Origin: Phycisphaerales bacterium | GTDB lineage: Bacteria; Planctomycetota; Phycisphaerae; Phycisphaerales; UBA1924 | Assembly (NCBI GenBank): GCA_020849615.1 | Contig: JADLFW010000016.1 | Span: 62,001-126,000, forward strand | Direction of reading: 5' to 3' | Length of the DNA stretch: 64,000 nt | Shown here: positions 19,456 through 50,353 of the stretch, piece after piece | Numbering within the stretch: position 1 is the first letter of the stretch | How the letters are laid out: each line of letters starts with the position of its first letter | Notes under the pieces: model-generated | The model's input: only the letters and a program-made list of their open reading frames with translations | Told to the model about the DNA's origin: nothing | The model's database searches: none | Made by a program: the position numbers and the translations under genes

Positions 19456-20496
19456 TCAGGAGTTGTACCAGTTCAGGAACTCGAGGTAGTCGGCGAAGTC
19501 GACGATGCAGTCGCCGTTGTAGTCGGCGCTGGGGTCGGCCGAGTCATAGGCGTTCAGGAAGTCCAGGTAATCGGTGAAGTCAACGATCCCGTCGCCGGTG
19601 CGGTCGGCCAGCTGCCCGGTCATCACCACCAGCTCCAGCTTGGCGGTCCAGCCGTTGATCAGCGCCGTGGGGTTCTCCTTGGTGAAGAACGCCGGGTAGG
19701 TCGGGTCACCCGTGCCGCCCGACGGGCCGCCCTGGGCCGGAGAGAGCGAGGAGATCATCAGCCGCAGCTTGCCGCCCTGCAGCGCCCGCTGGAAATACTC
19801 CCGCACCGTCGGCTGGCACAGATCGACGACGAACTCCATCTCCGTCGCCGCGGGCACCAGTTCGCCGGTCGCCAGGCCGTCGATCCGGCCGATGGCCATG
19901 GGCTGCCAGTCGAAGCCCTCACGCACCTGGCGGGAGATGTCGCTCGCCACCCCCGCCCCGTCGAACATCGCCGGGAAGACGTTCCGCGCGCCCTCGGCCG
20001 GCGGGACGATCGGCACGCCGCCGAACGGGCTGGTCTCGAGGAACGTGTCGACCGTCCAGCCGTTGCGGTAGCCCACGCCGAACAGCTCGACCGGCTTGCC
20101 GGTGTCGGCATCCGGCGTCCAGCTCGGATCATCCTCGGCGAACAGCGTGCTCACCGGATCGAACGAGGGGTCATAGCGGAACTGCTGGTCGGAGCTCACG
20201 ACCACCTTCACCCGGGCCGAAACGACCAGGTACGCCGAAGGGTCCAGGCCCGGCGTCACCTGCGATGCGGTGTCGAACCCGACCAGGAACTGCCCATCCC
20301 GGTCGTCAAAGCCGGGCTGGAGGATCGCCCCGAACGTGGGGGCGACCACCTCGCGCCCCGGGTTGGAGGCGAACGGGTACACCCAGCGGTCCAGCGCCGG
20401 CTGCTGAAAATCGACCGTAATCACGTCCGCCGACGCCGCGAATGCCGCAGCCGATCCGATGAGACCGGCCGCCACGATCTGGTTCAAACGTGTCAT
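19456..20496 (-). CDS. exported protein with C-terminal dockerin-like repeats
   Basis: A 346-residue secreted protein. A signal peptide (QIVAAGLIGSAAAFAASA) precedes a unique, mainly beta-looking region of about 260 residues with no family I recognise. The C terminus has two copies of a calcium-loop repeat, GDGIVDFTDYLDFLNAY and NGDCIVDFADYLEFLNWY, of the dockerin-like type found on many exported Phycisphaerae proteins. The ATG at 20496 is used because it places the signal peptide correctly; AGAGTT precedes it. It is divergent from the pseudopilin gene and shares a 170-base control region containing a palindrome. Confidence 0.75.
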   Translation of the reverse strand: MTRLNQIVAAGLIGSAAAFAASADVITVDFQQPALDRWVYPFASNPGREVVAPTFGAILQPGFDDRDGQFLVGFDTASQVTPGLDPSAYLVVSARVKVVVSSDQQFRYDPSFDPVSTLFAEDDPSWTPDADTGKPVELFGVGYRNGWTVDTFLETSPFGGVPIVPPAEGARNVFPAMFDGAGVASDISRQVREGFDWQPMAIGRIDGLATGELVPAATEMEFVVDLCQPTVREYFQRALQGGKLRLMISSLSPAQGGPSGGTGDPTYPAFFTKENPTALINGWTAKLELVVMTGQLADRTGDGIVDFTDYLDFLNAYDSADPSADYNGDCIVDFADYLEFLNWYNS

Positions 20497-20529
20497 ATGG
20501 AACTCTCCAAAAGAGGGGGTACCGAAAAG

Positions 20530-20558
20530 TGGACAAGACGACCGCATGCTCTTATAGT
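20530..20558 (+). promoter_or_regulatory. sigma70-type promoter of the pseudopilin gene
   Basis: TGGACA (20530-20535), a 17-base spacer, and TATAGT (20553-20558). Both hexamers are close to consensus. The start site would fall in the palindrome just downstream. Confidence 0.6.
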
Positions 20559-24181: not shown

Positions 24182-24271
24182 TCGGGTTCCCCGAGCCAGG
24201 TCAGTGCCCACCACTCGCGATCGTGTATGCTCCGCCTGCGCCACCGGACCGGCGCCTCTGGAGCCCGCAGC

Positions 24272-25864
24272 ATGGACCCGCTGCTCGCCGCCGCCACGCT
24301 CCGCCCCCTCGACTGGGCCATCCTCGCCGCCTACTTCATCCTCCTGGCCTTCACCGGCTGGTGGTTCTCCCGCGTCAAACACAAGACCACCGAGGACTAC
24401 TTCCTCGGCGGCCGCTCCATGCCCGTCTGGGCCGTCGCCATCTCCATCCTGGCAACCGCCCAGTCCGCGGCCACCTTCGTCGGCGTCCCCGAATCCGCCT
24501 ACGCCGGCGACCTGACGTACCTCTCCACCAACATCGGCGGGCTGATCGCCGCGGTCATCATCGCCGGGGTCTTCATCCCCGCCTATTACCGCCACAACGT
24601 CTCCACGCCCTACCAGCTCCTCGAAAGACGATTCGGCCCCGGCGCCAAGCTCGCCACCAGCTGGGCCTACATGATCGGCCGCGTCTTCGCCAGCGGCGCC
24701 CGCGTCTACGTCGGCGCCATCCCGGTTTCGCTCGCGATCTTCGGCGACATCGACCCGGGCCACCTTGCCATCTCGATCGCCGCCTTCATGGCCTTCGGGA
24801 TCGTCTACACCCTCGCGGGCGGGATCGCCAGCGTCATCTGGACCGATGTCTTCCAGGTCTGTGTGTACCTCGGGGCCGCCGTCGTCGCCGCGATTCTCCT
24901 CTGGCGCGCCATCCCGGCCGATGCCACGCAGATCCTCTCGGCCCTCTCCACCGGCATGCCCGATGGCTCCTCCAAGCTCACGCTCGTCCGGCCGGGGCTG
25001 GATTTCTCTAAGGCAAAGCTGGGCTTTGACCTCTCCGCCGAGTTCACGCTCATCACCGCCGTGACCGGCTGGATGCTGATCACCATCGCCTCCCACGGCA
25101 CCGACCAGGACCTCGTCCAGCGCATGCTCACCTGCAAAAACGCCGCCAAGGGCGGGCGGTCGGTCATCACCGGAATCCTTGTCGGCATCCCGACCGTGCT
25201 CCTCTTCGCCACCCTCGGCCTGCTCCTCTGGGTCTATTACAACCGCCCGGAACTCGCGGGCGGCGTGCACTCCCCCGCGACCATCGACGGCGCCCAGGTC
25301 TTCCTCCGCTACATCCTCACCGAGATGCCGCCCGGCGCCGCCGGGCTCATGATCGCCGGCGTCATGGCCGCCGGGCCCGCGGGCATCAACGCCTCCCTCA
25401 ACAGCATGTCAAGCACCTTCGTCGGCGATGTCTACCGCCCCGCCCGCCCGGGCCGGCCCGACCGCCACTACCTGCAGGTCGGCCGCCTCGCCACCATCGC
25501 GTGGGGCATCATCCTCGGCCTCTTCGCCATGCTCTGCATCCTGTGGCAGCAGCAGTCGCAGGAGAAGGTCCTCCCCTTCGTCCTGGGCGTCATGGCCTTC
25601 GCCTACGCCGGGCTGCTGGGTGTCTTCCTCACCGCCCTCTTCACCCGCCGCGGCAACACCGCCTCCGCGATCACCGCCCTCATCACCGGGTTTCTGATCG
25701 TGCTGCTTCTCCAGCCCGTCATCCTGAGCGCCATCACCGCGGGCTCACCGCTCGAGAGCCTGAAGCTCGCTTCCCCATGGCGGCTGGTCATCGGTACCGC
25801 CATCGCCACCCTCGTCTGCTGCGCGGGCCGGCCGCGTACCGTGATCCCCGCCCATGCTTCCTGA
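24272..25864 (+). CDS. sodium:solute symporter (SSS family), possible muramic-sugar importer
   Basis: A 530-residue SSS transporter with about 13 hydrophobic segments. The first begins with LDWAILAAYFILLAFTGWW; family markers are TTEDYFLGGRSMPVWAVAISI and, later, GGIASVIWTDVFQ and the GTDQDLVQRML segment. Its gene overlaps the GH20 gene by 11 bases and is followed by anmK and murQ, so imported substrate is inferred to be a peptidoglycan sugar (GlcNAc, MurNAc or anhydroMurNAc). SSS-family MurNAc import has been reported elsewhere (Tannerella, from memory). The substrate is inference from context only. The ATG at 24272 follows GGAG. Confidence 0.85.
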   Translation: MDPLLAAATLRPLDWAILAAYFILLAFTGWWFSRVKHKTTEDYFLGGRSMPVWAVAISILATAQSAATFVGVPESAYAGDLTYLSTNIGGLIAAVIIAGVFIPAYYRHNVSTPYQLLERRFGPGAKLATSWAYMIGRVFASGARVYVGAIPVSLAIFGDIDPGHLAISIAAFMAFGIVYTLAGGIASVIWTDVFQVCVYLGAAVVAAILLWRAIPADATQILSALSTGMPDGSSKLTLVRPGLDFSKAKLGFDLSAEFTLITAVTGWMLITIASHGTDQDLVQRMLTCKNAAKGGRSVITGILVGIPTVLLFATLGLLLWVYYNRPELAGGVHSPATIDGAQVFLRYILTEMPPGAAGLMIAGVMAAGPAGINASLNSMSSTFVGDVYRPARPGRPDRHYLQVGRLATIAWGIILGLFAMLCILWQQQSQEKVLPFVLGVMAFAYAGLLGVFLTALFTRRGNTASAITALITGFLIVLLLQPVILSAITAGSPLESLKLASPWRLVIGTAIATLVCCAGRPRTVIPAHAS

Positions 25865-27707
25865 CCCCGCCGCAATCGACCCGCTCCTCATCCCCGCCCC
25901 GCGCCGGCTCGACCGCCGCCCGGGCCACGCCTCGCTCCCGCCCGGCACGGGCCCGGATTCCCTACGCCCACTGATCGCAAGCCCGGACCCTTCCGCCGGG
26001 CCGCTGCCTCCTTGGCTCACCCTCCGGGCCGGCGGCGCGGCCTGCGGCATGAAGCCCACCGCGCTACAGGGCTACTCCCTCCGTATCGGCGAGTCCGGGC
26101 CCGTCGCCATCGAGTCCCCCACGACCGCGGGCCTGCGCCACGGCCTCGCCACGCTCCGGCAACTGCTTCGGCAGTACGGCCCGCGCCCGCCCGCGCTCGA
26201 GATCATCGATGCCCCCGCCTTCCCCACCCGCGGCGTCATGCTCGATGTCTCCCGCGACCGCATCCCCACGATGCCCGAGTTCCGGGCCATCATCGACCAG
26301 CTCGCCGACCTCAAGTTCAACCACCTCCAGCTCTACACCGAGCACACCTTCGCCTACGCGGGCCACGAAGACATCTGGCGGGGCTGGTCCTCGCTCACAC
26401 CCGAGGAAGTCGTCGAGCTCGATTCCTACTGCAGCCTCCGCGGCATCGACCTCGCCGCCAACCAGAACTGCTTCGGGCACCTGGCGGTCTGGCTCCGCCA
26501 TCCCAGGTACGCAAGCCTCGCCGAAACCCACGGCGACTGGAAGTTCTACCACTGGACCCGCAGCGGCCCGTTCAGTCTCTGCCCCGGCGACCCCGGCTCG
26601 ATCGCGCTCGTAGAGGATTGGCTCGAGCAACTCCTCCCGTGCTTCAGCTCCGGCCTGTGCAACATCAACGCCGATGAGACCTTCGACGTCGGGCAGGGCC
26701 GCTCGAAGGAGGCCGTCGAGCAACGCGGCCACGCCGCTGTCTACTTCGAGTTCATCGGGAAGGTCTGCAACGCCGTCCGCCGCCACGGCAAGCGACCCAT
26801 GTTCTGGGCCGACATCGCCCTCACACTCGAGAAGCAGGGCCATCCCGAGTCGATCGCCCTCATCCCCGCGGACCTCCTCTGCCTCGCCTGGGGCTACGAG
26901 CCCGAAGCCCAGTTCGGGCACTGGTGCGACCTCCTCCGCCGCGCGGGCCGCGAATCCTGGGTCTGCCCGGGCACCAGTTCCTGGCGATCCACGACGGGCC
27001 GCACCGCCGAGCGCCGGGCCAACCTCGACCGCGCCGCCCGCGACGGTCTCCACCACGATGCCACGGGGTACCTCATCACCGACTGGGGCGATGTCGGCCA
27101 CACTCAGCAATGGCCCGTCTCCCTTCACGGGATCGCCGAGGCCGCCCACGCCGCGTGGACCGGCGCTGTCGCTTCAGCCGATTCCCGCGCGGTGTTCCAC
27201 CGGGCCGAATCGCTCCACACTCTCGATGACCGCTCACTCACCCTCGCCTCCTGGCTCGACCGCCTCGGCGAGGTTGATGCTCCGATCCGAAGCGCCTGGG
27301 CCACTTCGCCCGAAGGCCGGCCCGTCCGCCTCCACAACGCGACCGCCCTGTTCAACGATTTCCGCCTGCCTTGGCGCGAACAACCCAGACCCGGCTCGGT
27401 CGCAGACTGGTCCGATGCCGCCGATCGGCTCGAAGCACTGGCCAGCGCCATGCCGCCGGGCCTGCCCGCCTTCACCCGCGAAGAACTCGACCACACGATC
27501 GATGTCGCGCGAACCTCGATCGCCCGGGCCATCGCGCGACGCCGGGCCGATGCCCCCACCTCGGCCGACCGCGCTGCCCTCGGCGAGTCCATCCACCGCA
27601 TCATGACCGGCCACGCCCGCCTCTGGGCCCGGCGCTCCCGCCCGGGCGGGCTCGACAACAGCCAGAAACATTACCAGAAAGTGCTTGACGAACTCTCGTC
27701 TTCCTGA
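25854..27707 (+). CDS. GH20-like beta-N-acetylhexosaminidase
   Basis: A 617-residue glycoside hydrolase family 20 relative. Residues 1-120 resemble the GH20b accessory domain. The barrel begins with TRGVMLDVSRDRIPT (125-139), and the catalytic Asp-Glu pair is D274-E275 in INADETFDVGQ; the strand-2 stretch KFNHLQLYTEHTFAY is typical. The C-terminal 200 residues are helical. No signal peptide is evident, so it probably acts in the cytoplasm on imported disaccharides, for example removing GlcNAc from GlcNAc-anhydroMurNAc. It overlaps the symporter gene by 11 bases and lies upstream of anmK. Exact specificity is inferred from context. Confidence 0.82.
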   Translation: MLPDPAAIDPLLIPAPRRLDRRPGHASLPPGTGPDSLRPLIASPDPSAGPLPPWLTLRAGGAACGMKPTALQGYSLRIGESGPVAIESPTTAGLRHGLATLRQLLRQYGPRPPALEIIDAPAFPTRGVMLDVSRDRIPTMPEFRAIIDQLADLKFNHLQLYTEHTFAYAGHEDIWRGWSSLTPEEVVELDSYCSLRGIDLAANQNCFGHLAVWLRHPRYASLAETHGDWKFYHWTRSGPFSLCPGDPGSIALVEDWLEQLLPCFSSGLCNINADETFDVGQGRSKEAVEQRGHAAVYFEFIGKVCNAVRRHGKRPMFWADIALTLEKQGHPESIALIPADLLCLAWGYEPEAQFGHWCDLLRRAGRESWVCPGTSSWRSTTGRTAERRANLDRAARDGLHHDATGYLITDWGDVGHTQQWPVSLHGIAEAAHAAWTGAVASADSRAVFHRAESLHTLDDRSLTLASWLDRLGEVDAPIRSAWATSPEGRPVRLHNATALFNDFRLPWREQPRPGSVADWSDAADRLEALASAMPPGLPAFTREELDHTIDVARTSIARAIARRRADAPTSADRAALGESIHRIMTGHARLWARRSRPGGLDNSQKHYQKVLDELSSS

Positions 27708-27740
27708 CTCTGCCCCCTGTCCCCTGTTCCCTTCCTTCCC

Positions 27741-28895
27741 ATGGCTTCCCGACTTGCCGCAGGCTGCATGACCGGAACGAGCCTCGATGGGCTCGATGTT
27801 GCGCTTGTCGCCATCGAGGGCGCGGGCCTCTCGATGTCCGCGAAGTTCATCCGCGCCGTTTCCCGGCCGCTGGGCCCGGTCGCGGAGCCCCTCCGGCGCC
27901 TCGCCGACCAGCAGCCGATGACCGCGGGCGATATCGCCCGGGCCTCCCGCGATTTCGCCCTTCTTCACACCGAGGCCCTCCGCGAGCTCGCGGGACCCGA
28001 CAAGCTCGATCTCATCTGTATCCACGGGCAGACGGTCTTCCATCAGCCGCTCCCTCGTTCAACAACAGGGGGGGCGGGCGTCCGGCCCGCATCTTCACCC
28101 TCTTCAACTGGCCTCTCCTGGCAGCTCCTCAACCCCTTCCCGATCGCCCACGCCCTCCGCTGCCCCGTCGTCTACGACCTCCGGGCCGCCGACATCGCCG
28201 CGGGCGGCCAGGGCGCCCCCATCACGCCCATCGCCGACTGGGTCTTCTTCGGCCACCTCGACGGGCGCACCGCCATCGCCAACCTCGGCGGCTTCTGCAA
28301 CATCACGACGTTGCCCGCGCGCGTCACGCCCGCGAGCCCCAGCGACCCGGCCCTCATCCGCGGCTTTGACCTCTGCGCTTGCAACCAGCTCCTCGATGGC
28401 ATCGCCCGCAAGCTCCTCCACCAGCCCTTCGACGCCGATGGCGCCCGGGCCGGCTCGGGCGAAGTCAGTAGCGACGCCCTCGCCGACCTCGAGGGCATCT
28501 TCAACACCCAGCGCGCGGGCCGGCGCTCCCTGGGCACCGGCGATGAGCTCCACGAGTGGATCTCCCGCTACCGCGCCCACCTGCCCCCCGAAGCGATCGC
28601 CGCCACCGCGTGCGAGGCCATCGCCCAGGCCATCGCCGAGGCCACCCGCGGCTGCCGCCGCCTCCTGCTCGCTGGCGGCGGCCTGAAGAACAAGACCCTC
28701 ACCGCCGCCATCCGCTCGTGCAGCTCTTCCATCGTCGAGCCGACCGATGCCCACGGCCTGCCCGCCGGGTTCCGCGAGGCCGCCGAGTTCGCCGTGCTCG
28801 GCGCCCTTTGCCAGGACCGCATCCCCATCACCCTCCCACAGGTCACCGGTGTACCCGACCCCGCGCCAATATCGGGGGCGTGGGTCTTCCCCTGA
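27741..28895 (+). CDS. anmK: anhydro-N-acetylmuramic acid kinase
   Basis: A 384-residue AnmK, which opens 1,6-anhydroMurNAc and phosphorylates it to MurNAc-6-phosphate. The N-terminal GCMTGTSLDGLD (8-19) is the ATP-binding signature; CIHGQTVFH and DLRAADIAAGGQGAP follow. Relative to the family a stretch of about 22 residues (103-124, codons 28047-28112) is extra and lies just where the nucleotide sequence looks like an intergenic hairpin. The gene lies between the GH20 gene and murQ, which uses its product. Confidence 0.92.
   Translation: MASRLAAGCMTGTSLDGLDVALVAIEGAGLSMSAKFIRAVSRPLGPVAEPLRRLADQQPMTAGDIARASRDFALLHTEALRELAGPDKLDLICIHGQTVFHQPLPRSTTGGAGVRPASSPSSTGLSWQLLNPFPIAHALRCPVVYDLRAADIAAGGQGAPITPIADWVFFGHLDGRTAIANLGGFCNITTLPARVTPASPSDPALIRGFDLCACNQLLDGIARKLLHQPFDADGARAGSGEVSSDALADLEGIFNTQRAGRRSLGTGDELHEWISRYRAHLPPEAIAATACEAIAQAIAEATRGCRRLLLAGGGLKNKTLTAAIRSCSSSIVEPTDAHGLPAGFREAAEFAVLGALCQDRIPITLPQVTGVPDPAPISGAWVFP
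28047..28112. other. in-frame insertion in anmK, repeat-like
   Basis: Codons 103-124 of anmK encode a Ser/Pro/Gly-rich stretch absent from typical AnmK proteins. The DNA holds GGGGCGGGC-GTCC-GGCCCGC, a GC-rich hairpin of a kind usually seen between genes. The insertion keeps the reading frame and lies between HGQTVFHQ and the next conserved block. Confidence 0.4.
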
Positions 28896-28929
28896 CCCAA
28901 TATCATCTCCTTCGCCGTCTCACCGACTT

Positions 28930-29856
28930 ATGCCCCTCCCTCCCGACCGCTCCCATCTCCTCACCGAGCAGCGCAACCCGCGCTCGATGTCTCTCCACAC
29001 CCTGTCCGCCGCCGAATGCGTCGCCCTCATCAACCGCGAAGACCGGACCGTCCTCGACGCCATCGAGAAGGCCGGGCCCGCACTCACGGCGCTCATCCAG
29101 GCCGCGGAACCCGGCTTCACCGCCGATGGCCGCCTGATCTATGTCGGCGCCGGCACCTCCGGCCGCCTTGGTGTGCTCGATGCCTCCGAAGCCCCCCCCA
29201 CCTTCCAGGTCGAGCCGGGCAAAGTCGTCGGCCTCATCGCCGGCGGCGACTCCGCCCTCCGCAAGTCCAGCGAGGGCAAGGAAGATGACCCCGATGGCGC
29301 TCGTCCCGAACTCGACGCTCTGAACCTCACCCCACGTGACACCGTCATTGGCATCGCCGCCGGCGGCACCACGCCCTACGTCCTCGGGGCCCTGCGACTC
29401 GCCAAGGCCCGGCCCGCGCCGCCGCTTACCGCACTCATCGCCTGCTCACCGGTCCCCAGACCTTCGGGGGCCGACCACCTCATCATCCTCGAGACCGGGC
29501 CCGAGGTCCTCACCGGCTCCACCCGCATGAAAGCCGGAACCGCTACCAAGCTTGCCCTCAACACCATCTCCACCACCCTCATGGTCCGCTCGGGCCGCGT
29601 CTATCAGAATTTGATGGTCGACCTCCGGGCCACGAACGCCAAGCTCCGCGACCGCGCGGCCCGGATCGTCGCCACCCTCACGGGCCTCCCGCGCGATGAC
29701 GCCTTCGCCCTCCTCGATGACGCCGGCGGCGCGGTCAAGACAGCCATCGTCATGCACCGCCGCGGCATCCCCCGCGCCGAGGCCGAGGCCCTCCTCACCC
29801 GCACGGGCCAGCGCCTCGACGCCGCCCTGGATACCCCGCTCCATGGCCCGGCATGA
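28930..29856 (+). CDS. murQ: N-acetylmuramic acid 6-phosphate etherase
   Basis: A 308-residue MurQ, which splits MurNAc-6-phosphate into GlcNAc-6-phosphate and D-lactate. The N terminus TEQRNPRSMSLHTLSA matches the family start; the SIS sugar-phosphate fold follows with YVGAGTSGRLGVLDASEAPPTF (catalytic Glu in SEAPPTF), IAGGDSALRKSSEGKEDD and GSTRMKAGTATKLALN. It is 34 bases after anmK. The next enzymes needed, NagA and NagB, are not in the window. The start at 28930 is placed by homology; no Shine-Dalgarno sequence is visible. Confidence 0.93.
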   Translation: MPLPPDRSHLLTEQRNPRSMSLHTLSAAECVALINREDRTVLDAIEKAGPALTALIQAAEPGFTADGRLIYVGAGTSGRLGVLDASEAPPTFQVEPGKVVGLIAGGDSALRKSSEGKEDDPDGARPELDALNLTPRDTVIGIAAGGTTPYVLGALRLAKARPAPPLTALIACSPVPRPSGADHLIILETGPEVLTGSTRMKAGTATKLALNTISTTLMVRSGRVYQNLMVDLRATNAKLRDRAARIVATLTGLPRDDAFALLDDAGGAVKTAIVMHRRGIPRAEAEALLTRTGQRLDAALDTPLHGPA

Positions 29857-30750: not shown

Positions 30751-31755
30751 ATGAACCGGATCCTCCACGTCGGCGCGGGGCCCCTCGGCCTGCGGGTCCT
30801 TTCCGAGTACCTCTCCCGACGCATGGGCCCGGTCGTCGCTGTCGTGGATTCCTCCCCCGACCTGGCAGGAAAGCCCCTCTCCGCCCTCATCCCCGGCGCT
30901 TCCCCCGAACTCAAGGTCCTCCCCTCCCTCGATGCCATCCAGAACTGGCCCGACATCGACGCCGCCATCGTCGCCACCAGCTCCGACCTCCGGGCCTGCG
31001 AGCCCACCTTCCGCCACATCCTCCAGCAGGGCAAGGCCATCATCACCACCTGCGAGGAGGCCCTCTTCCCCTGGCTCCGCCACGACAAGCTCGCGCAGGA
31101 ACTGCACGCCCTCGCGCTCAAGCACGGCGGCCGGCTCCTGGGCACCGGCGTCAACCCCGGCTTCCTGATGGATTCCCTCCCGGTCTTCCTCACCGGCGTC
31201 TGCAAGTCGGTCCGCAGCATCGAGGCCTACCGCGTCCAGGATGCCTCGGCCCGGCGCATCCCCTTCCAGAAGAAGATCGGCGCCGGGCTCACCGATGACG
31301 AGTTCAACACCCGCGTCGCCGATGGCTCCATCCGCCACGTCGGCCTCGGCGAATCCATCCACTTCATTTCCCACTACTGCGGCCTCAAGATCGAACGCTG
31401 GGATGAGGACATCGCCCCCATCCACGCCGAACGCGACATGGTCAGCGGCATGGGAGTCATTCCCAAGGGCCGCATCGCCGGCGTCCGCCAGGTCGCCCGG
31501 GCCTACGCGGATGACCAGGTCGTCATCCGTTTGGATTTCCAGGCCGCCATCGGCCAGCTCGACCCCTACGACCGCATCGTCATCCACGGCGAACCGGACA
31601 TCGACACCATCCTCTCCGGGGGCGTCCACGGCGACCTCGCCACCTCCGCCATCACCTGCAACGCCCTCCCCCGACTCCTCGCCGCCCAGCCGGGCCTGCA
31701 CACCATGGCCACCATCCCCATGGTCCACACCGTTCAGCAAATCCGCGGCAGTTGA
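30751..31755 (+). CDS. COG3804-type NAD(P)-dependent dehydrogenase (DapB / 2,4-diaminopentanoate dehydrogenase-like)
   Basis: A 334-residue protein. The N terminus ILHVGAGPLGLRVLS is a Rossmann loop. The catalytic-domain segment GTGVNPGFLMDSLPVFL is typical of the dihydrodipicolinate-reductase-like group that includes 2,4-diaminopentanoate dehydrogenase of ornithine breakdown. It is not a normal DapB (which is shorter and has a different substrate motif). An alpha-oxoamine synthase gene follows after 27 bases, so the two probably act on linked amino-ketone chemistry. The natural substrate is unknown. Confidence 0.75.
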   Translation: MNRILHVGAGPLGLRVLSEYLSRRMGPVVAVVDSSPDLAGKPLSALIPGASPELKVLPSLDAIQNWPDIDAAIVATSSDLRACEPTFRHILQQGKAIITTCEEALFPWLRHDKLAQELHALALKHGGRLLGTGVNPGFLMDSLPVFLTGVCKSVRSIEAYRVQDASARRIPFQKKIGAGLTDDEFNTRVADGSIRHVGLGESIHFISHYCGLKIERWDEDIAPIHAERDMVSGMGVIPKGRIAGVRQVARAYADDQVVIRLDFQAAIGQLDPYDRIVIHGEPDIDTILSGGVHGDLATSAITCNALPRLLAAQPGLHTMATIPMVHTVQQIRGS

Positions 31756-31782
31756 ACCGCCTTGTTGGCCGATTGAATTGGC

Positions 31783-32967
31783 ATGCCGCTCAGCCTCGTC
31801 GACTCCGCCAGCCACCCGGACTTCGCCGCCGCCTCCCTCCGCTCGACCCCTCCGGCCCGCACCATGGGACGAATCTCGATCGAAGCCTTCAGCCCCACCC
31901 ACGCCACCATCGGCGGCCGCGAAATCCTCACCTTCGGCGGCTGCGGCTACCTCGGGCTTTCCCACCACCCCCGCGTCCGGGCCGCGCTCATCGAGTCCCT
32001 CGACACCCTCGGCCTCAGCACATCCGCCTCCCGCGAGACCACCGGCAACACGCTCACCCACGAAGCCCTCGAGCTCGACCTCGCCTCCTTCCTGAACACC
32101 GAGTCGGCCATCCTGACCCCCGAGGGCTACACCGCCAACCTCGCCCTCGCCCAGGCCCTGGCCTGGCGCTACCGGGTCGCCATCGTCGATGAGCGCAGCC
32201 ACCGCAGCGTCGGCCACGCCGTCGCCGCCGCCGGGCTGGATGTCCACACCTTCGAGCACCTCAGCGCGGGCCAGGCCGCTTCCCTCGCGGCCCGTCACGC
32301 CGACCGCGGCGTCGTCATCTACACCGATGGCGTCTTCGCGGCCGATGGCTCGGTCGCCCCGGCCGACAAGCTTTACGCGGCCCTGCCTGAACGAAACTCG
32401 CTCCTCATCATCGATGACTGCCACGGCTTCTGCGTCCTGGGTGACAACGGCCGCGGCACCGCCTCCCAGTTCGGCATCGCCGGCCCGCGCCTGTGCATCA
32501 CGACCACCCTCGCCAAGGGCCTGGGCTGCTACGGCGGCGCCATCGCCGGGCCCGGCGACCTCATCCGCGACATCCAGACCCACGCCGGCGTGTACCGCGG
32601 CACCACGCCCGTCCCGCCCCCCATCGCCGCCTCCGCCCGGGCCGCGCTGGCGGTCGTGGCGCAGGATGGCTCCCTGGTGCAGAGCCTGCGCAGCAACATC
32701 GCCCACATGCGATCCATCCTCAGCGCCGCCGGGCTGCGCTTCCCCGAGCCCGCGGTCCCGATCTTCACCTTCATGCTCGACTCGACCGAGCGCATGGAAG
32801 CCATCCACCACGCCCTCTTCGAGCGCGGCATCCTGGCCCCGCTGATCGAATACCCGGGCGGCCCGGCCAGCCGCTACTTCCGCCTCAGCATCACCGCCGC
32901 CCACACGGCCGAGCACATCGACCGGCTGGGCCGGGAGCTGGCAGCGCTGATCCGGATGGCGGCGTAG
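31783..32967 (+). CDS. PLP-dependent alpha-oxoamine synthase family protein
   Basis: A 394-residue fold-type I PLP enzyme of the alpha-oxoamine synthase group (KBL, BioF, ALAS, serine palmitoyltransferase). The PLP lysine lies in TTTLAKGLGCYGG, the cofactor Asp in IIDDCHGFCVLG, and SASRETTGNTLTHEALE is the helix near the substrate. These enzymes condense an amino acid with an acyl-CoA. BioF-like activity is possible, but no other biotin gene is nearby. The partner dehydrogenase upstream suggests the aminoketone product is further reduced or aminated. Which acyl-CoA and amino acid are used cannot be told. Confidence 0.78.
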   Translation: MPLSLVDSASHPDFAAASLRSTPPARTMGRISIEAFSPTHATIGGREILTFGGCGYLGLSHHPRVRAALIESLDTLGLSTSASRETTGNTLTHEALELDLASFLNTESAILTPEGYTANLALAQALAWRYRVAIVDERSHRSVGHAVAAAGLDVHTFEHLSAGQAASLAARHADRGVVIYTDGVFAADGSVAPADKLYAALPERNSLLIIDDCHGFCVLGDNGRGTASQFGIAGPRLCITTTLAKGLGCYGGAIAGPGDLIRDIQTHAGVYRGTTPVPPPIAASARAALAVVAQDGSLVQSLRSNIAHMRSILSAAGLRFPEPAVPIFTFMLDSTERMEAIHHALFERGILAPLIEYPGGPASRYFRLSITAAHTAEHIDRLGRELAALIRMAA

Positions 32968-42337: not shown

Positions 42338-42475
42338 TCCGCCTTCCGTCGCCTCTTCGTGGTGGCCCACGAACCTGATATCCCTCTCCACGGGTTCCGC
42401 TTGCTGCGCGAGCGTCACCCGTGGCTACATGCCCGCAGCCCCATCGGGCCCAGAAACGGCGTCGTACGCCCGATA

Positions 42476-42481
42476 TATCCT
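42476..42481 (+). promoter_or_regulatory. -10 box upstream of the GH38 gene
   Basis: TATCCT within CGATATATCCTCC. It would give a leader of about 22 bases before the ATG at 42510. Confidence 0.35.
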
Positions 42482-42509
42482 CCTGATCTCACTGGGAACC
42501 CGTACCGCG

Positions 42510-45500
42510 ATGCCCAAAGACCCCTTCCAAGAACTCCACCTCGCCACCCACCGCTACAAGGTCTTCCTCCGCGATGTCCTCGAGCCCGCGGTGTACGGGC
42601 CGACCGCGCCGCTGAAGATCGAAGCCGCCCAGTTCGCTCCTTCCGACACCGACCCGCCCACGTACGAGCAGGCCCGCGCCGCCACGTACCGCCCCGTCGA
42701 GCTCGGCTGGGCCTGGGGCCCCAAGTGGTCCACGGCGTGGTTCCGCCTCACCGGCGCCATCCCCGATTCCATGCGCGGGCGGCCCGTCGCGCTCCGCTTC
42801 AGCAGCGGCACCGAAGCCCTGCTCTGGTCCGCTGATGGCGTTCCGGTTCACGGACTCGACAGCAACCGCGACGCCATCCGCCTCTTCGAATCCGCCCGCG
42901 GCGGTGTGCCGATCCGCCTCCACATCGAGGCCGCCTGCAACCACCCCTTCGGCGTGCTGGGCTTCGACTGGGACCCGCCCGAACTCCGCCGACGCTGGGA
43001 ATCACCCACGCCGGGCCTGCTCGAACGGGCCGACCTCGCGGTCCTCCATCCTCTCCTGTGGGACCTCCGCTGCGCGTACGCCTTCGCCATCGCGCTGCTG
43101 CTCGAACTCCCGACCGACCAATCCCGCCACCACCAGCTCAACGCCTCGCTCCGCCGGGCCACCAACCTGATCCTCGACACCGACCCCGAGGCATCGGCCC
43201 GGCCCGCGCTCGAGATCCTGAACGAAACCCTCCGCATTTCCGCGGCCGGCTCTGCACCGACGGGCCACGCCGTCGGGCACGCCCATATCGACACCGCCTG
43301 GCTCTGGCCCGCCCGTGAGACCAAACGCAAGTGCCTCCGCACCTTCGCCACCGTGCTGCGGAACATGGAGCGATTCCCCGACTTCCGTTTTCTGTGCTCG
43401 CAGGCCCAGCAGTACGCATGGGTCGAGGAGCGCTCCCCCGCACTCTTCGAGCAGATCCGGGCCCGCGTCGCCGAAGGGCGCTGGGAGCCGGGCGGGGCGA
43501 TGTGGATCGAGCCCGATGCCAACATCATCTCGGGCGAATCGCTCATCCGCCAGATCCTGCACGGTGAACGCTACTGGCGCTCACGCTTCGGCGCAGCCGG
43601 GCGGCAGCGGTTCCTCTACCTGCCCGACACTTTCGGCTTCTGCCCGGCACTGCCGCAGATCATGGCGCAGGCGGGCCTCGACACCTTCATCACCAACAAG
43701 ATGATCTGGAGCCAGTTCAACACCTTCCCGCACACCACCTTCCGCTGGCGCGGGCTTGATGGCACCGAGATCCTCACCCACTTCACGCCGGGCCACGACT
43801 ACAACGCCTCCAACACCCCGAAACAGCTCCGCCATGCCGAGACCCACCACCGCAACCGCGACCAGGGACGGGCCGGCGCTTCGCGAGCGCCCGGGCCCGC
43901 GCGATTCCTCCAGCCCTTCGGCTTCGGTGATGGCGGCGGCGGGCCTACCGACTGGAGCATCCGCTACACGCAGTTGGCTGCGGACTGCGACGGCCTGCCC
44001 CGCATGAAGCTCTCGACGGCCGGCGAGTTCTGCGATGGGCTCCACGCCGACCACGCCTCGCTCCGCGCGGCCGGCGAAGACCTCCCCGTCTGGTCGGGCG
44101 AGCTGTACCTGGAGCTGCACCGCGGCACGCTGACGACGCAGGCCCGGATCAAGCGGGCCAACCTCCGCGCCGAGCAGTCCCTTCGCCTCGCGGAGCTGCT
44201 CTGCGCAAACTCACCGACTGGCGGCCCGATGGCCCGCGCTGAGCTCGATGAAGCCTGGAAGCTGACGCTGCTCAACCAGTTCCACGACATCATCCCGGGG
44301 TCCTCGATCGGGCCCGTCTACGACGATGCGATCAAGGACCACGCGCGCATCGAGGCGATAGCCACCGGAATCATCGAGCGATCGATCCCCGGCTGGATCG
44401 AGCGCCTCGGGACCGATGGCATCGCCGAGCCCATCGCGGTCTTCAACCCCGGCAGCCGCCCGCGCAGCGGCATCGTCGAAGTCGCCGGGCCCGGCGGCGA
44501 GAAACGGCCCGTCTTCGCATCGGAGGTTCCCGCGCTGGGAATCGCGGTCGTGGATGCCGGAGCGGGTTTGCCCTGCCCCGTCCATGCCGCGTCCGCGGGC
44601 GATTCGGTCACGCTCTCCAACGGCGTGCTGACGGCGGTGATCGACGCCTACGGGCGCATCACCAGCCTCCGGCGCGGGGCGGCCGGGCGGGAGGTCTGCG
44701 CTGCCGGGCCGCTCAACCAGCTCGTGCTCTACGAAGACCGCCCCACCATGTGGGATGCCTGGGACATCGACTGGTTCTACGCGCAGAAGCCCTGCCCGAT
44801 TAGCGCCGGGACGCGGGCCGACGTTCGAATCCTCAGCGCCGGCCCGGCGCGGGCTGATGTGGAGATCGCGATGCCTGTCGGCGAGTCCAGCCGGCTGACC
44901 CAGATCTTCCGCCTGGATGTGGGATCTCCAAGGCTGGACATCATCACGCGGGTTGGCTGGCACGAATCGCGCCGCCTCCTGCGGGCGCTCTTCCCGACAG
45001 ATGTAGTTTCCGATCATGCGACGTATGGAACCCAGCTCGGACATATCCGCCGCCCTACACATCGCAATACCTCGTGGGACATGGGCCGCTTCGAAGTCTG
45101 CGCCCACCGATTCGCCGATCTCTCCGAGCCCGGCTTCGGCCTCGCGCTGCTCGCCGACTGCAAGTACGGGTACTCGGCCCACGACTCGACGCTGGGGCTG
45201 AGCCTGCTGCGCAGCCCCAAATGGCCCGACCCCGATGCCGACATGGGCGATCACGAGTTCACGTACGCCCTGATGCCCCACGATGGCGACTGGCGGGCCG
45301 CGGGCGTCGATGCCGAGGGCGAAGCGCTCGCTGCGCCCATGCGCGCCCGGCCCGTTGAGCCGCGGCCCGGAAAGTTGAATCGCTGGTCACCTTTCCGGAT
45401 TTCGACAGATGGCCCGGTCGGAATCGCGGTCGATGCGTTCAAGCCCGCCCATGATGATGATCGGCTGATCCTGCGCCTGCACGAACACCACGGCGGCCGC

Positions 45501-45677
45501 GGCACAGCGCACATCGACTGGAACATCCCGCCCCGCGCGGTGGCGGCCACCGATCTCCTCGAGCAACCCACAGATTTGAGGGGGCTGGAGCATCGCTCAG
45601 ACTTGAGGGCGGGCCAGCCCCGAACGAGTGTGCCGCTGCGTCCGTTCCAGATCGTGACGCTCGCGATCTCGATGTGA
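42510..45677 (+). CDS. GH38-family alpha-mannosidase
   Basis: A 1055-residue glycoside hydrolase family 38 enzyme. The zinc site is GHAHIDTAWLWP (HxHxD) and the nucleophile Asp lies in LYLPDTFGF; PFGFGDGGGGPT and NQFHDIIPGSSIG are further hallmarks. Domains in order are an N-terminal beta region, the catalytic barrel, a three-helix bundle and beta-sandwich C-terminal domains. No signal peptide is seen, so it should be cytoplasmic and remove alpha-mannose from glycans. It lies beside no sugar transporter. The ATG at 42510 is taken by homology. Confidence 0.9.
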   Translation: MPKDPFQELHLATHRYKVFLRDVLEPAVYGPTAPLKIEAAQFAPSDTDPPTYEQARAATYRPVELGWAWGPKWSTAWFRLTGAIPDSMRGRPVALRFSSGTEALLWSADGVPVHGLDSNRDAIRLFESARGGVPIRLHIEAACNHPFGVLGFDWDPPELRRRWESPTPGLLERADLAVLHPLLWDLRCAYAFAIALLLELPTDQSRHHQLNASLRRATNLILDTDPEASARPALEILNETLRISAAGSAPTGHAVGHAHIDTAWLWPARETKRKCLRTFATVLRNMERFPDFRFLCSQAQQYAWVEERSPALFEQIRARVAEGRWEPGGAMWIEPDANIISGESLIRQILHGERYWRSRFGAAGRQRFLYLPDTFGFCPALPQIMAQAGLDTFITNKMIWSQFNTFPHTTFRWRGLDGTEILTHFTPGHDYNASNTPKQLRHAETHHRNRDQGRAGASRAPGPARFLQPFGFGDGGGGPTDWSIRYTQLAADCDGLPRMKLSTAGEFCDGLHADHASLRAAGEDLPVWSGELYLELHRGTLTTQARIKRANLRAEQSLRLAELLCANSPTGGPMARAELDEAWKLTLLNQFHDIIPGSSIGPVYDDAIKDHARIEAIATGIIERSIPGWIERLGTDGIAEPIAVFNPGSRPRSGIVEVAGPGGEKRPVFASEVPALGIAVVDAGAGLPCPVHAASAGDSVTLSNGVLTAVIDAYGRITSLRRGAAGREVCAAGPLNQLVLYEDRPTMWDAWDIDWFYAQKPCPISAGTRADVRILSAGPARADVEIAMPVGESSRLTQIFRLDVGSPRLDIITRVGWHESRRLLRALFPTDVVSDHATYGTQLGHIRRPTHRNTSWDMGRFEVCAHRFADLSEPGFGLALLADCKYGYSAHDSTLGLSLLRSPKWPDPDADMGDHEFTYALMPHDGDWRAAGVDAEGEALAAPMRARPVEPRPGKLNRWSPFRISTDGPVGIAVDAFKPAHDDDRLILRLHEHHGGRGTAHIDWNIPPRAVAATDLLEQPTDLRGLEHRSDLRAGQPRTSVPLRPFQIVTLAISM

Positions 45678-47160: not shown

Positions 47161-48213
47161 ATGACCATCCGCCCTTTCATCACCCTTCTGTCCGGGCTGA
47201 TCACCCTCGCGCTGATCGCGGGGTGCGCTGCGCGGCCGCCGCAGCCCCTGGCCCGGCGCGGCGATGAGATCATGATCGCGGGGCAGTTGTTCCACACGGG
47301 CGCCCCTGTGGTGCTCTGGACCGACCCCGGCGGGTACGATGCCTACCGCACGGAGCGCCGGTTCGCGCCCTGGGACGGGTCCGAATGGGGGAAGGGCGGC
47401 GAGAAGGGCCTCGAAACGCCGGCCCGCTACGGCGTCCGCCGTGTTCCGCTGTCCCCCGAGGAGTTCGAGCAGGTGCGGGGCGGGGGCTGGACCCTCGACC
47501 TGCTCCGGCGGCACGTCGATCAGTTCGTCATCCACTACGACGCCGCCGGCACCAGCCGGACGTGCTTCCGCATCCTCCACGACCTCCGCGGCCTCTCCGT
47601 CCACTTCATGCTCGACCTCGATGGCACCATCTACCAGACCCTCGACGTCAAGGAACGGGCCTGGCACGCGACGATCGCCAACGACCGCTCGGTCGGCATC
47701 GAGATCGCCAACATCGGGGCCTACCCGCCCGACAAGGCCGCGGTGCTCTCCCGCTGGTACACCGCGGATTCCTCGGGGCTCACCCGGATCACGATCCCTC
47801 CCGAACTCGGCGATGGCGGGCTGCGCACGCCGGGGTTCGTGGCCCGCCCGCGGAACGCACACCCGATCACGGCGGTCGCTCAAGGCCAGGTCTTGACGCA
47901 GTACGACCTGACGCCGCAGCAGTACGACTCGCTCATCAAGCTCACCGCGGCGCTGTGCACCGCCCTGCCCGCCATACGCTGCGACTATCCGCGCGATCCC
48001 GATGGGCGGCCGCGGGGCACCGCCCTGTCGCCTTCCGAGTTCGCCGGGTACACCGGGCTGCTGGGCCACCTGCACGTCCAGGAGAACAAGGCCGACCCTG
48101 GCCCGGCGTTTGACTGGGAGCTCGTCACCCGCGAGGCCCGCCGCCGGATGGGCAGCCGCCCGGCGCCCTATCAAGGCCCGGCGTCCTTGGCTCGCGAGGA
48201 CGGGGCGCGGTAA
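47161..48213 (+). CDS. N-acetylmuramoyl-L-alanine amidase (Amidase_2), lipoprotein
   Basis: A 350-residue protein. A lipoprotein signal (FITLLSGLITLALIAGC) would anchor it. The amidase zinc site appears as FVIHYDAAG (first His), the WHATIANDRSVGIEI segment, and GHLHVQENKADPGPAFDW (second His and Asp). The family cuts the bond between MurNAc and the stem peptide of peptidoglycan. A GHL10-like hydrolase and a ROK kinase follow, which fits breakdown of the freed glycan. It may act on imported or envelope wall fragments. Confidence 0.85.
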   Translation: MTIRPFITLLSGLITLALIAGCAARPPQPLARRGDEIMIAGQLFHTGAPVVLWTDPGGYDAYRTERRFAPWDGSEWGKGGEKGLETPARYGVRRVPLSPEEFEQVRGGGWTLDLLRRHVDQFVIHYDAAGTSRTCFRILHDLRGLSVHFMLDLDGTIYQTLDVKERAWHATIANDRSVGIEIANIGAYPPDKAAVLSRWYTADSSGLTRITIPPELGDGGLRTPGFVARPRNAHPITAVAQGQVLTQYDLTPQQYDSLIKLTAALCTALPAIRCDYPRDPDGRPRGTALSPSEFAGYTGLLGHLHVQENKADPGPAFDWELVTREARRRMGSRPAPYQGPASLAREDGAR

Positions 48214-48248
48214 TCTCCGCGGAAGTGCTGCCGCGGAAAGGACTCCCG

Positions 48249-49496
48249 ATGCCACTCTTCCGGCCCGTGTTCTTGTCACTCCTGTTGATCGTGGCGGCCA
48301 TGGCGGCCGTGCCCGGCGTAGCCCCGTCTGCCCGGGCCGATGAGCCCTTCCGCGGCGTGTGGGTGACCCGCTGGGACTTCCGGACGCCCGATGATGTGCG
48401 GCGGGTCATCGCCGAGTGCGCCTCGGTCCAGGCGACCGATGTGATCTGGCAGGCGCGGGGCCAGGCCGATGCGTTCTACCGCAGCGAGCTGGAACCGTGG
48501 GGGCGGGAACTGTTCCGCGACCTGCCGCCCGGCGCGACCGACCCGGGGTTCGATCCGCTCGCGCTGGCGGTGAAGGAGGCCCACGCCCGCGGCATGAAGC
48601 TGCACGCCTGGGTCAACGTCATGCCGCTCTGGAAGGGCCCTGTGCCGCCGACCGATCCCCGGCACCTGCTGAACTCCAGGCCCCAGTGGCGCCTGCACGA
48701 CGCCGCCGGCAGGCCGCAGCCTCTCAACGACCACTACGTGATCGTGAACCCGGTGCTGGAGGAGGTGCAGGACTACCTCGTCGCGGTCTTCGGGGACATC
48801 GTCTCGCGGTACGAAATCGATGGCCTGCACCTGGACTACATCCGGTTTGTCTCCGAGAAGATGGACGCTTCCACACTCTACCCGGCGGACCCCGCATCGC
48901 TCGAAGCCTTCAAGTCCGCCACGGGCCACGACACCCCCGCTTCCCCCGATGAGATCGCGGCATTCCAGGACTGGAAGCGCGCCCGGATCACCGACCTGGT
49001 CCGCCGCATCCGCCGCGACGCCGTCGATCGCCGGCCCGGCTGCGTGCTCACCGCCGCCGTGTGGCGCCGGCCCGACCTTGGGCTCAACCAGTACCTGCAG
49101 GACGGGCCGGCCTGGCTGAGCGACGGGCTGCTCGACCGCGCGTTCCCCATGATCTACACCGCCAAGCCCGAGCAGTTCAGCTCCGACCTCGCGGCCTGGA
49201 TCGAGGCCGCGTCGGGCCGTCCCATCACCCCTGGGCTGGCCGTCTACCTCCACGTCCCCGGACAGACCGCCGACCAGGCCGAGACCGCCCGGGCCATGGG
49301 CACCGACGGCTTCGCGCTCTTCTCCTACGAGTCGTTCTTTGAGAGCGTCAATCCGGAGCAGTCCAAGACGCCCGAGATGATCGCCACCCGCGCGGGCCGG
49401 CTCGCCGCGTTCCGCGACTGGCTGCTCCGCCAGCCCGTGCTCTCCCCGCACGAATCCTCCCCGCCGTCTTCGTCCCCGTCCGAGCCACCCAAGTGA
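48249..49496 (+). CDS. GHL10 (DUF187 / DigH-like) glycan hydrolase
   Basis: A 415-residue exported protein. The signal peptide is RPVFLSLLLIVAAMAAVPGVAPSARA. The hydrolase-like barrel opens with FRGVWVTRWDF and includes GLHLDYIRF near residue 200, characteristic of the glycosyl hydrolase-like 10 family. E. coli DigH of this family cleaves peptidoglycan strands after amidases remove the peptides. Here an amidase gene lies 35 bases upstream, which supports a matched pair. The substrate assignment is inference from this pairing. The ATG at 48249 follows AAAGGA. Confidence 0.8.
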   Translation: MPLFRPVFLSLLLIVAAMAAVPGVAPSARADEPFRGVWVTRWDFRTPDDVRRVIAECASVQATDVIWQARGQADAFYRSELEPWGRELFRDLPPGATDPGFDPLALAVKEAHARGMKLHAWVNVMPLWKGPVPPTDPRHLLNSRPQWRLHDAAGRPQPLNDHYVIVNPVLEEVQDYLVAVFGDIVSRYEIDGLHLDYIRFVSEKMDASTLYPADPASLEAFKSATGHDTPASPDEIAAFQDWKRARITDLVRRIRRDAVDRRPGCVLTAAVWRRPDLGLNQYLQDGPAWLSDGLLDRAFPMIYTAKPEQFSSDLAAWIEAASGRPITPGLAVYLHVPGQTADQAETARAMGTDGFALFSYESFFESVNPEQSKTPEMIATRAGRLAAFRDWLLRQPVLSPHESSPPSSSPSEPPK

Positions 49497-50353
49497 CCGC
49501 CCTCGGCATCGACATCGGCGGCTCCAGCGTGAAGACCGCGCTGCTCCGCGGTGAGGCCGTCATCGCGACGGGCCAGAGCCCGCGGTACTCCGGCCCCGAT
49601 GCCCGGGCCATCGCGGCCGCCATCGCCGCCGCCATACCTTCGGAAGCCCGGCTCTCCTTTCCACCGCCCGATGTCGGCGTCTGCGCGCCGGGCCTTTACG
49701 ACCCGGCCCGGCGGTGCATTACTACCTCCGTCAACCTGCCCGGGCTGGTCGGTGTTGACCTGCGGGACCTGATCTCGCAGGCGCTGGCCCGGCCGGTGAC
49801 AGGACTATCGGTGCGGACCGATGCGCACGCCGCCGCCGTGGATTACTGGACGCTGCACCCGGGCCCGGATCGCGTGCTGGCGCTCTCCCTGGGCACCGGC
49901 GTCGGCGCCTGCGTGCTGGATGACGGCCGGCCCGTGCGGCTGACGGGCCCGTCCTCGGGGCACCTGGGACAGATGGATGTGTCGGTCGAGGGTGAGCCGG
50001 TCCCGCTCGGGCCCGATGGCGGCCGCGGCAGCCTCGAGGGCTACATCGGCCTGCCGGCGCTCATCGCCAGGTACGGGCCCGACCTTCGCGGCGCGTTCGC
50101 GGAGCCGGCCCCCGCCGCGCCGCTGCGGGCGCTGGCCCGTGCGATCCGTATTACCCACGCCGTCTACCGGCCGCAGCGCACGGTGCTGCTCGGCGGCGTC
50201 GGGCTGCTGCTCGCGCCATCGCTGGAAGTGCTGCGAGCGCTGGTGTCGAAGGAGCTCACTTCGCTGGCCCGGCCCGGGTGGGAGCTGGCGTGCGGGGACC
50301 ATGCGCACCACGCGGCGGCCGGGGCGGCGCGACTGGCCCGCGCGGCGGGCTGA
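49493..50353 (+). CDS. ROK-family sugar kinase
   Basis: A 286-residue ROK protein. GIDIGGSSVKTAL is the ATP-binding start, LALSLGTGVGACVL the second phosphate loop and SGHLGQM the GHxG-type motif. The zinc-binding CxCGxxGC of many ROK kinases is absent. It starts at a GTG overlapping the previous stop (GTGA), so it is coupled to the GHL10 gene. A likely role is to phosphorylate an amino sugar released by the amidase and hydrolase, for example GlcNAc. Specificity cannot be read from sequence. Confidence 0.75.
   Translation: MTALGIDIGGSSVKTALLRGEAVIATGQSPRYSGPDARAIAAAIAAAIPSEARLSFPPPDVGVCAPGLYDPARRCITTSVNLPGLVGVDLRDLISQALARPVTGLSVRTDAHAAAVDYWTLHPGPDRVLALSLGTGVGACVLDDGRPVRLTGPSSGHLGQMDVSVEGEPVPLGPDGGRGSLEGYIGLPALIARYGPDLRGAFAEPAPAAPLRALARAIRITHAVYRPQRTVLLGGVGLLLAPSLEVLRALVSKELTSLARPGWELACGDHAHHAAAGAARLARAAG

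Follow-up and report, generated by a model that had tools for sequence, protein, structure and literature searches.

The breakdown of muramic sugars is described in two systems that come close to the locus presented here. Recycling of the Escherichia coli type relies on AmpG, NagZ, AnmK, MurQ, NagA, and NagB. The murTKQ operon of Tannerella forsythia encodes a transporter, a kinase, and MurQ (PMC5388701, PMC10465942, PMC7670621), the transporter MurT being described as the member of a novel transporter family (PMC7670621). MurNAc is the substrate of the kinase MurK in this system, for which no AnmK is predicted. At the level of the polymer, DigH of E. coli hydrolyzes peptide-free glycan strands (PMC12288456). 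Peptidoglycan has been demonstrated in several planctomycetes (PMC5147048), so that its presence in this group, referred to as long disputed in the initial annotation of the DNA analyzed here, is no longer disputed in principle. For Phycisphaerales, no gene-level account of muramic-sugar salvage was found in the literature searched.

A four-gene cluster in a Phycisphaerales genome

The window, meaning the whole DNA stretch of 64,000 nucleotides that was analyzed, belongs to a member of the Phycisphaerales (Planctomycetota), in agreement with the planctomycete host that had been named for it. The host genome is a 4.57 Mb draft in 47 contigs, and is 92.6% complete. Pfam and NCBIfam profiles identify four genes in the order given by the initial annotation, namely a symporter, a GH20 hexosaminidase, AnmK, and MurQ; all four are complete and arranged head to tail on the + strand.

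The sodium:solute symporter (SSS) gene (24227-25864, +) scores above the cut-offs of PF00474 and TIGR00813 (187.4 bits against 184 for the latter), and the solved structure closest to its product is the SSS symporter 5nv9. Two in-frame ATGs are present, at 24227 and, internally, at 24272 (MDPLLAAATL...), and the second of them, from which the cluster had originally been counted, may be the true start. Muramic saccharides are proposed as the cargo of this importer from its gene context. The GH20 exo-hexosaminidase gene (25854-27707, +) overlaps the symporter gene by 11 nt and matches PF00728 with 45.1 bits (cut-off 22.3). It is followed, after a gap of 33 nt, by the AnmK gene (27741-28895, +), whose product is matched by PF03702 over its full length (residues 7-373) with 173 bits, against a cut-off of 24. 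A further gap of 34 nt leads to the gene of MurQ, the N-acetylmuramic acid 6-phosphate etherase (28930-29856, +), which reaches 328 bits with TIGR00274, above the curated equivalog cut-off of 302, and can be aligned with 4s12 over its entire length. For MurQ, 28930 is the most likely start, which gives a protein of 308 aa; the open frame from 28747 would overlap AnmK. The short overlap and the two short gaps are spaced as in an operon, the upstream neighbor of which is a tyrosyl-tRNA synthetase gene.

Several other features of these surroundings can be mentioned. On the 3' side of MurQ (30751-32967) lie a 2,4-diaminopentanoate dehydrogenase-like gene, a TauE gene, and a BioF/KBL-like gene, with TauE in the middle, and a KBL-like gene is also found downstream of MurQ in the loci L168, L169, and L171. 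On the - strand, the gene at 19456-20547 encodes a GC-type dockerin domain (NF041540). In the alignment of AnmK proteins, those of the window's order read D[LVI]C[ATV]CN at the position of the DTGPGN motif.

GH20 and NagZ across the class

The survey of the class covered 198 genomes, in which a score of at least 120 bits defined membership of the GH20 subfamily (92 genomes). Because all of them belong to one class, these genomes share ancestry, and Fisher p-values overstate their independence. AnmK and MurQ are both present in 114 of the 198 genomes (Fisher p 9e-16, a significance inflated by kinship). Their genes adjoin in 66 of the 198, and 64 of these 66 pairs lie on the same strand with AnmK upstream of MurQ. 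Members of the GH20 subfamily adjoin AnmK or MurQ in 19 genomes, distributed over at least nine families. Taken together, the adjacency of AnmK and MurQ and the linkage of GH20 indicate a gene order that is not explained by chance. Loci were retrieved around AnmK, MurQ, or GH20 in genomes of the class, and 25 of these 44 contain an SSS gene. Two natural fusions lend further support to a muramic-sugar pathway: an AnmK::MurQ protein of 699 aa in genome G149 (L149:8613-10712, -), and a ROK::MurQ protein of 626 aa in genome G023 (L053:10942-12822, -), for which the profile search gave no AnmK match.

The GH20 protein of the window carries a catalytic Asp-Glu pair (D274-E275) that does not vary among 17 cluster members and 30 wider relatives, and the top relatives in its alignment come mostly from Phycisphaerales and other Planctomycetota. 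Its AlphaFold model, predicted with confidence (pLDDT 93), is matched best, along almost its full length, by the folds of GH20C from Streptococcus pneumoniae and GcnA from S. gordonii (14% identity, Z about 35). A strongly hydrophobic N-terminus is seen neither in this protein, nor in the other cluster GH20s, nor in the cluster NagZ proteins, the starts of the last being uncertain. The lack of an N-terminus of the signal-peptide type, together with the resemblance of its model to GH20C and GcnA, makes the cytoplasm the most likely place of action of the GH20 of the window.

In five genomes of the window's family (G003, G013, G032, G090, and G096), a NagZ-like GH3 gene lies near AnmK-MurQ, and no such GH20 is found anywhere in the genome; the position in G003 was taken from the profile search. 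These NagZ proteins score 171-187 bits, under the NCBI cut-off of 207, NagZ being by far the best-matching family, and an SSS gene also accompanies the NagZ-type cluster in four of the five genomes. The host, a second genome of the same family (G119), and two more of the same order (G107 and G172) have GH20 in an SSS/GH20-AnmK-MurQ cluster, and the profile search with NF003740 gives no NagZ match anywhere in these four genomes. Among the 34 genomes of the order, NagZ is present in 13, each of which also has AnmK, and GH20 in 8, with both in none (p 0.013, inflated by kinship). Over the class, the two are found together in 2 genomes, where 12 would be expected (p 1e-5, likewise inflated by kinship). 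NagZ also lies beside AnmK-MurQ in two genomes from outside the order (G031 and G068).

Given this mutual exclusion and the shared cluster position in relatives, GH20 and NagZ are most simply understood as having one and the same function, with a cytoplasmic GH20 replacing NagZ. What is proposed for the host glycosidase is a NagZ-like activity, not NagZ identity. AnmK is also present, in one case on a truncated contig, in seven genomes of the order that have neither NagZ nor this GH20, which suggests that the cytoplasmic glucosaminidase can sometimes be dispensed with or that another enzyme takes its part. In a tree of 98 GH20 proteins, the linked ones fall into a Phycisphaerales/Calditrichota clade, a separate clade of 14, and two isolated rows, so that the link with AnmK/MurQ arose more than once or was often lost; outside the linked clades, most GH20 genes of this kind are not near AnmK/MurQ. 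Many of the records are metagenome bins, whose phylum labels may in some cases be wrong. GH20 may have replaced NagZ repeatedly, acting along with SSS in place of AmpG/PTS and with a MurNAc-phosphorylating ROK that is fused to MurQ in the relative with no AnmK match, a tentative scenario that we rate at about one chance in three.

A second gene set and further steps in the host

About 17 kb away from the operon, the window holds a second set of three genes. An Amidase_2 gene, for an N-acetylmuramoyl-L-alanine amidase (47161-48213, +; PF01510, 76 bits), encodes a protein with a lipoprotein-like hydrophobic N-terminus. Next to it, a GHL10 glycosidase gene (48225-49496, +; PF02638, 105.8 bits) encodes a protein that is predicted to be exported and also has a hydrophobic N-terminus, and a gene for a ROK-family sugar kinase (49493-50353, +; PF00480) encodes a proposed GlcNAc or MurNAc kinase. 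A GH38 alpha-mannosidase gene is located upstream of this set, at 42429-45677.

Relatives of these genes are linked to those of the operon in other genomes. Genome G023 (L053) has SSS, GHL10, ROK::MurQ, and GH20 in one single-strand gene run, an amidase homolog adjoins a GH20 of this kind in G078 (L056), and a ROK homolog lies behind SSS-GH20-AnmK-MurQ, on the opposite strand, in L168, L169, and L171. Judging from this linkage, the amidase, GHL10, and ROK probably belong to the muramic-sugar pathway. The cluster as initially annotated stands with its four genes, and the probable further part at 47161-50353 lay outside the scope of that description.

The specificity of MurK-like kinases is associated with small residues replacing bulky Glu/His and with Thr replacing Asn before the catalytic Asp (PMC10465942). 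All five ROK proteins have Thr or Ser at this Asn position, and their Glu position aligns with His. A match with MurK at both specificity positions was considered and dropped, since the alignments show His, not Ser, at the ExGH glutamate. With one of the two positions in agreement, either GlcNAc or MurNAc may be the substrate of the ROK kinase.

Profile searches of the 92.6% complete host draft, on which all absences reported for this genome rest, gave no match to AmpG (TIGR00901), nor to the SLT and MltG lytic transglycosylases. MurC and the Mur ligases are present, so that the host can probably make peptidoglycan. A SpoIID/LytB-domain protein is encoded shortly upstream of two Mur ligase genes (L253:7212-13484, contig G000:C24), and SpoIID proteins can be lytic transglycosylases. 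MltG and SLT were considered as the source of the host's own anhMurNAc; neither was found, and SpoIID was, so that this source would rest on SpoIID.

Of the two enzymes to which the initial annotation had pointed for the fate of GlcNAc-6-phosphate, NagB is present (TIGR00502, 241 against 236.9 bits), solely as a NagB-PIG-L fusion that lies elsewhere in the genome, and the profile search of the host found nothing above the TIGR00221 cut-off for canonical NagA. The fusion protein has 683 aa and scores 983 bits with NF002557 (L248:7195-9246, -, contig G000:C6). Its PIG-L domain could deacetylate GlcNAc-6-phosphate, which makes the fusion a candidate for both the NagA and the NagB steps. Profile searches found no NagB above the cut-off in the five same-family genomes with NagZ, and the fate of GlcNAc-6-phosphate may therefore differ there.

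Proposed pathway and comparison with known systems

The operon probably serves the uptake and catabolism of peptidoglycan sugars, with a cytoplasmic GH20 in the role of NagZ. The direction of the pathway, from the import of muramic sugars to their breakdown to GlcNAc-6-phosphate, had already been suggested from the window itself, and is strengthened by the genome comparison, the substrates and the direction of transport being inferred. Outside the inner membrane, the amidase would strip the peptides, and the glycan would be cut by GHL10 and by SpoIID, if the latter is a lytic transglycosylase. A small saccharide would then enter with sodium through the SSS symporter, and the cytoplasmic GH20 would take GlcNAc off GlcNAc-anhMurNAc (or GlcNAc-MurNAc), a step for which relatives would use NagZ. 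AnmK would convert anhMurNAc to MurNAc-6-phosphate, which MurQ would turn into GlcNAc-6-phosphate and D-lactate. Free GlcNAc or MurNAc would be phosphorylated by the ROK kinase, and NagB-PIG-L may then deacetylate and deaminate GlcNAc-6-phosphate to fructose-6-phosphate.

The sugar may come from the host's own wall or from that of other bacteria. We give nearly an even chance to scavenging, in which the walls of other bacteria would be cut outside by secreted enzymes and the fragments imported as a carbon and nitrogen source; this differs from the pathway above solely in the sugar source. The MurQ route leads to catabolism, an SSS importer fits uptake from outside, and both are consistent with scavenging, as are the missing SLT, MltG, and AmpG matches and the export-type N-termini of the amidase and GHL10. 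However, MurC, the Mur ligases, and the nearby SpoIID suggest that the host builds a wall of its own, which it could also turn over, and AnmK requires anhydro ends, which a transglycosylase of the host itself would make.

Two other explanations concern the substrate. Chitobiose and other glycans are further substrates of GH20 enzymes, and GH20 and SSS might handle chitobiose or GlcNAc oligosaccharides, with AnmK-MurQ fed by another route and GlcNAc-6-phosphate as the shared endpoint. Many solved GH20 relatives do act on chitin-type or host glycans, the nearest folds, GH20C and GcnA, are those of general hexosaminidases, and such GH20s also occur away from AnmK/MurQ; this explanation is nonetheless unlikely, as NagZ occupies the GH20 position in close relatives, no genome of the order has both, and the association recurs across separate GH20 clades. 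It is far less probable still that the operon is not intended for muramic sugars, the divergent AnmK using levoglucosan or some other anhydro-sugar. Levoglucosan kinase does belong to the superfamily of AnmK, the window AnmK remains under the per-group cut-offs of NCBIfam PRK09585 (best 216.8 against 387 bits, the groups being narrow and the window clade divergent), and its clade reads DLCACN at the site of the DTGPGN seen in the other AnmKs of the class. Yet its best solved relative is the AnmK of Pseudomonas aeruginosa, against which it scores better than against levoglucosan kinase structures, MurQ follows AnmK in the operon, and the two are fused in G149. The protein also retains the Asp of the GFD motif, presumably the catalytic base.

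If salvage of peptidoglycan sugars is confirmed, it would provide a gene-level account of this process in Phycisphaerales, with three candidate replacements, SSS for AmpG, GH20 for NagZ, and NagB-PIG-L for NagA plus NagB. The use of NagZ and AmpG as markers would score such genomes as lacking recycling. The biochemistry is known in kind; what is new is the likely exchange of GH20 for NagZ, an SSS importer in a genome with no AmpG match, and the link with the amidase, GHL10, and ROK, no description of which was found in the open papers searched. Precedents for GH20 in the place of NagZ, or for an SSS-type MurNAc transporter, were likewise not found in the open literature, and subscription journals could contain one. 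For the earlier statement of SSS-type MurNAc import in other organisms, this literature offered no backing; the MurNAc importer MurT is described as a novel transporter family (PMC7670621).

Compared with recycling of the E. coli type, the AnmK and MurQ steps and the GlcNAc-6-phosphate route are shared, whereas in the host SSS is present without an AmpG match, GH20 without NagZ, and NagB-PIG-L without a canonical NagA. In T. forsythia, the genes of a transporter, a kinase, and MurQ likewise share an operon, but MurT is described as a novel transporter family, and the kinase is MurK. Streptococcal GH20C and GcnA share their fold with the GH20 of the window over nearly the whole protein in spite of the low identity, and we know of no role for them in peptidoglycan metabolism. 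Lastly, E. coli DigH, which we take to be a GHL10 protein, differs from the GHL10 proteins described here in its setting: the gene of the window is grouped with those of an amidase and a ROK kinase, and that of the relative G023 sits inside an SSS/MurQ/GH20 operon.
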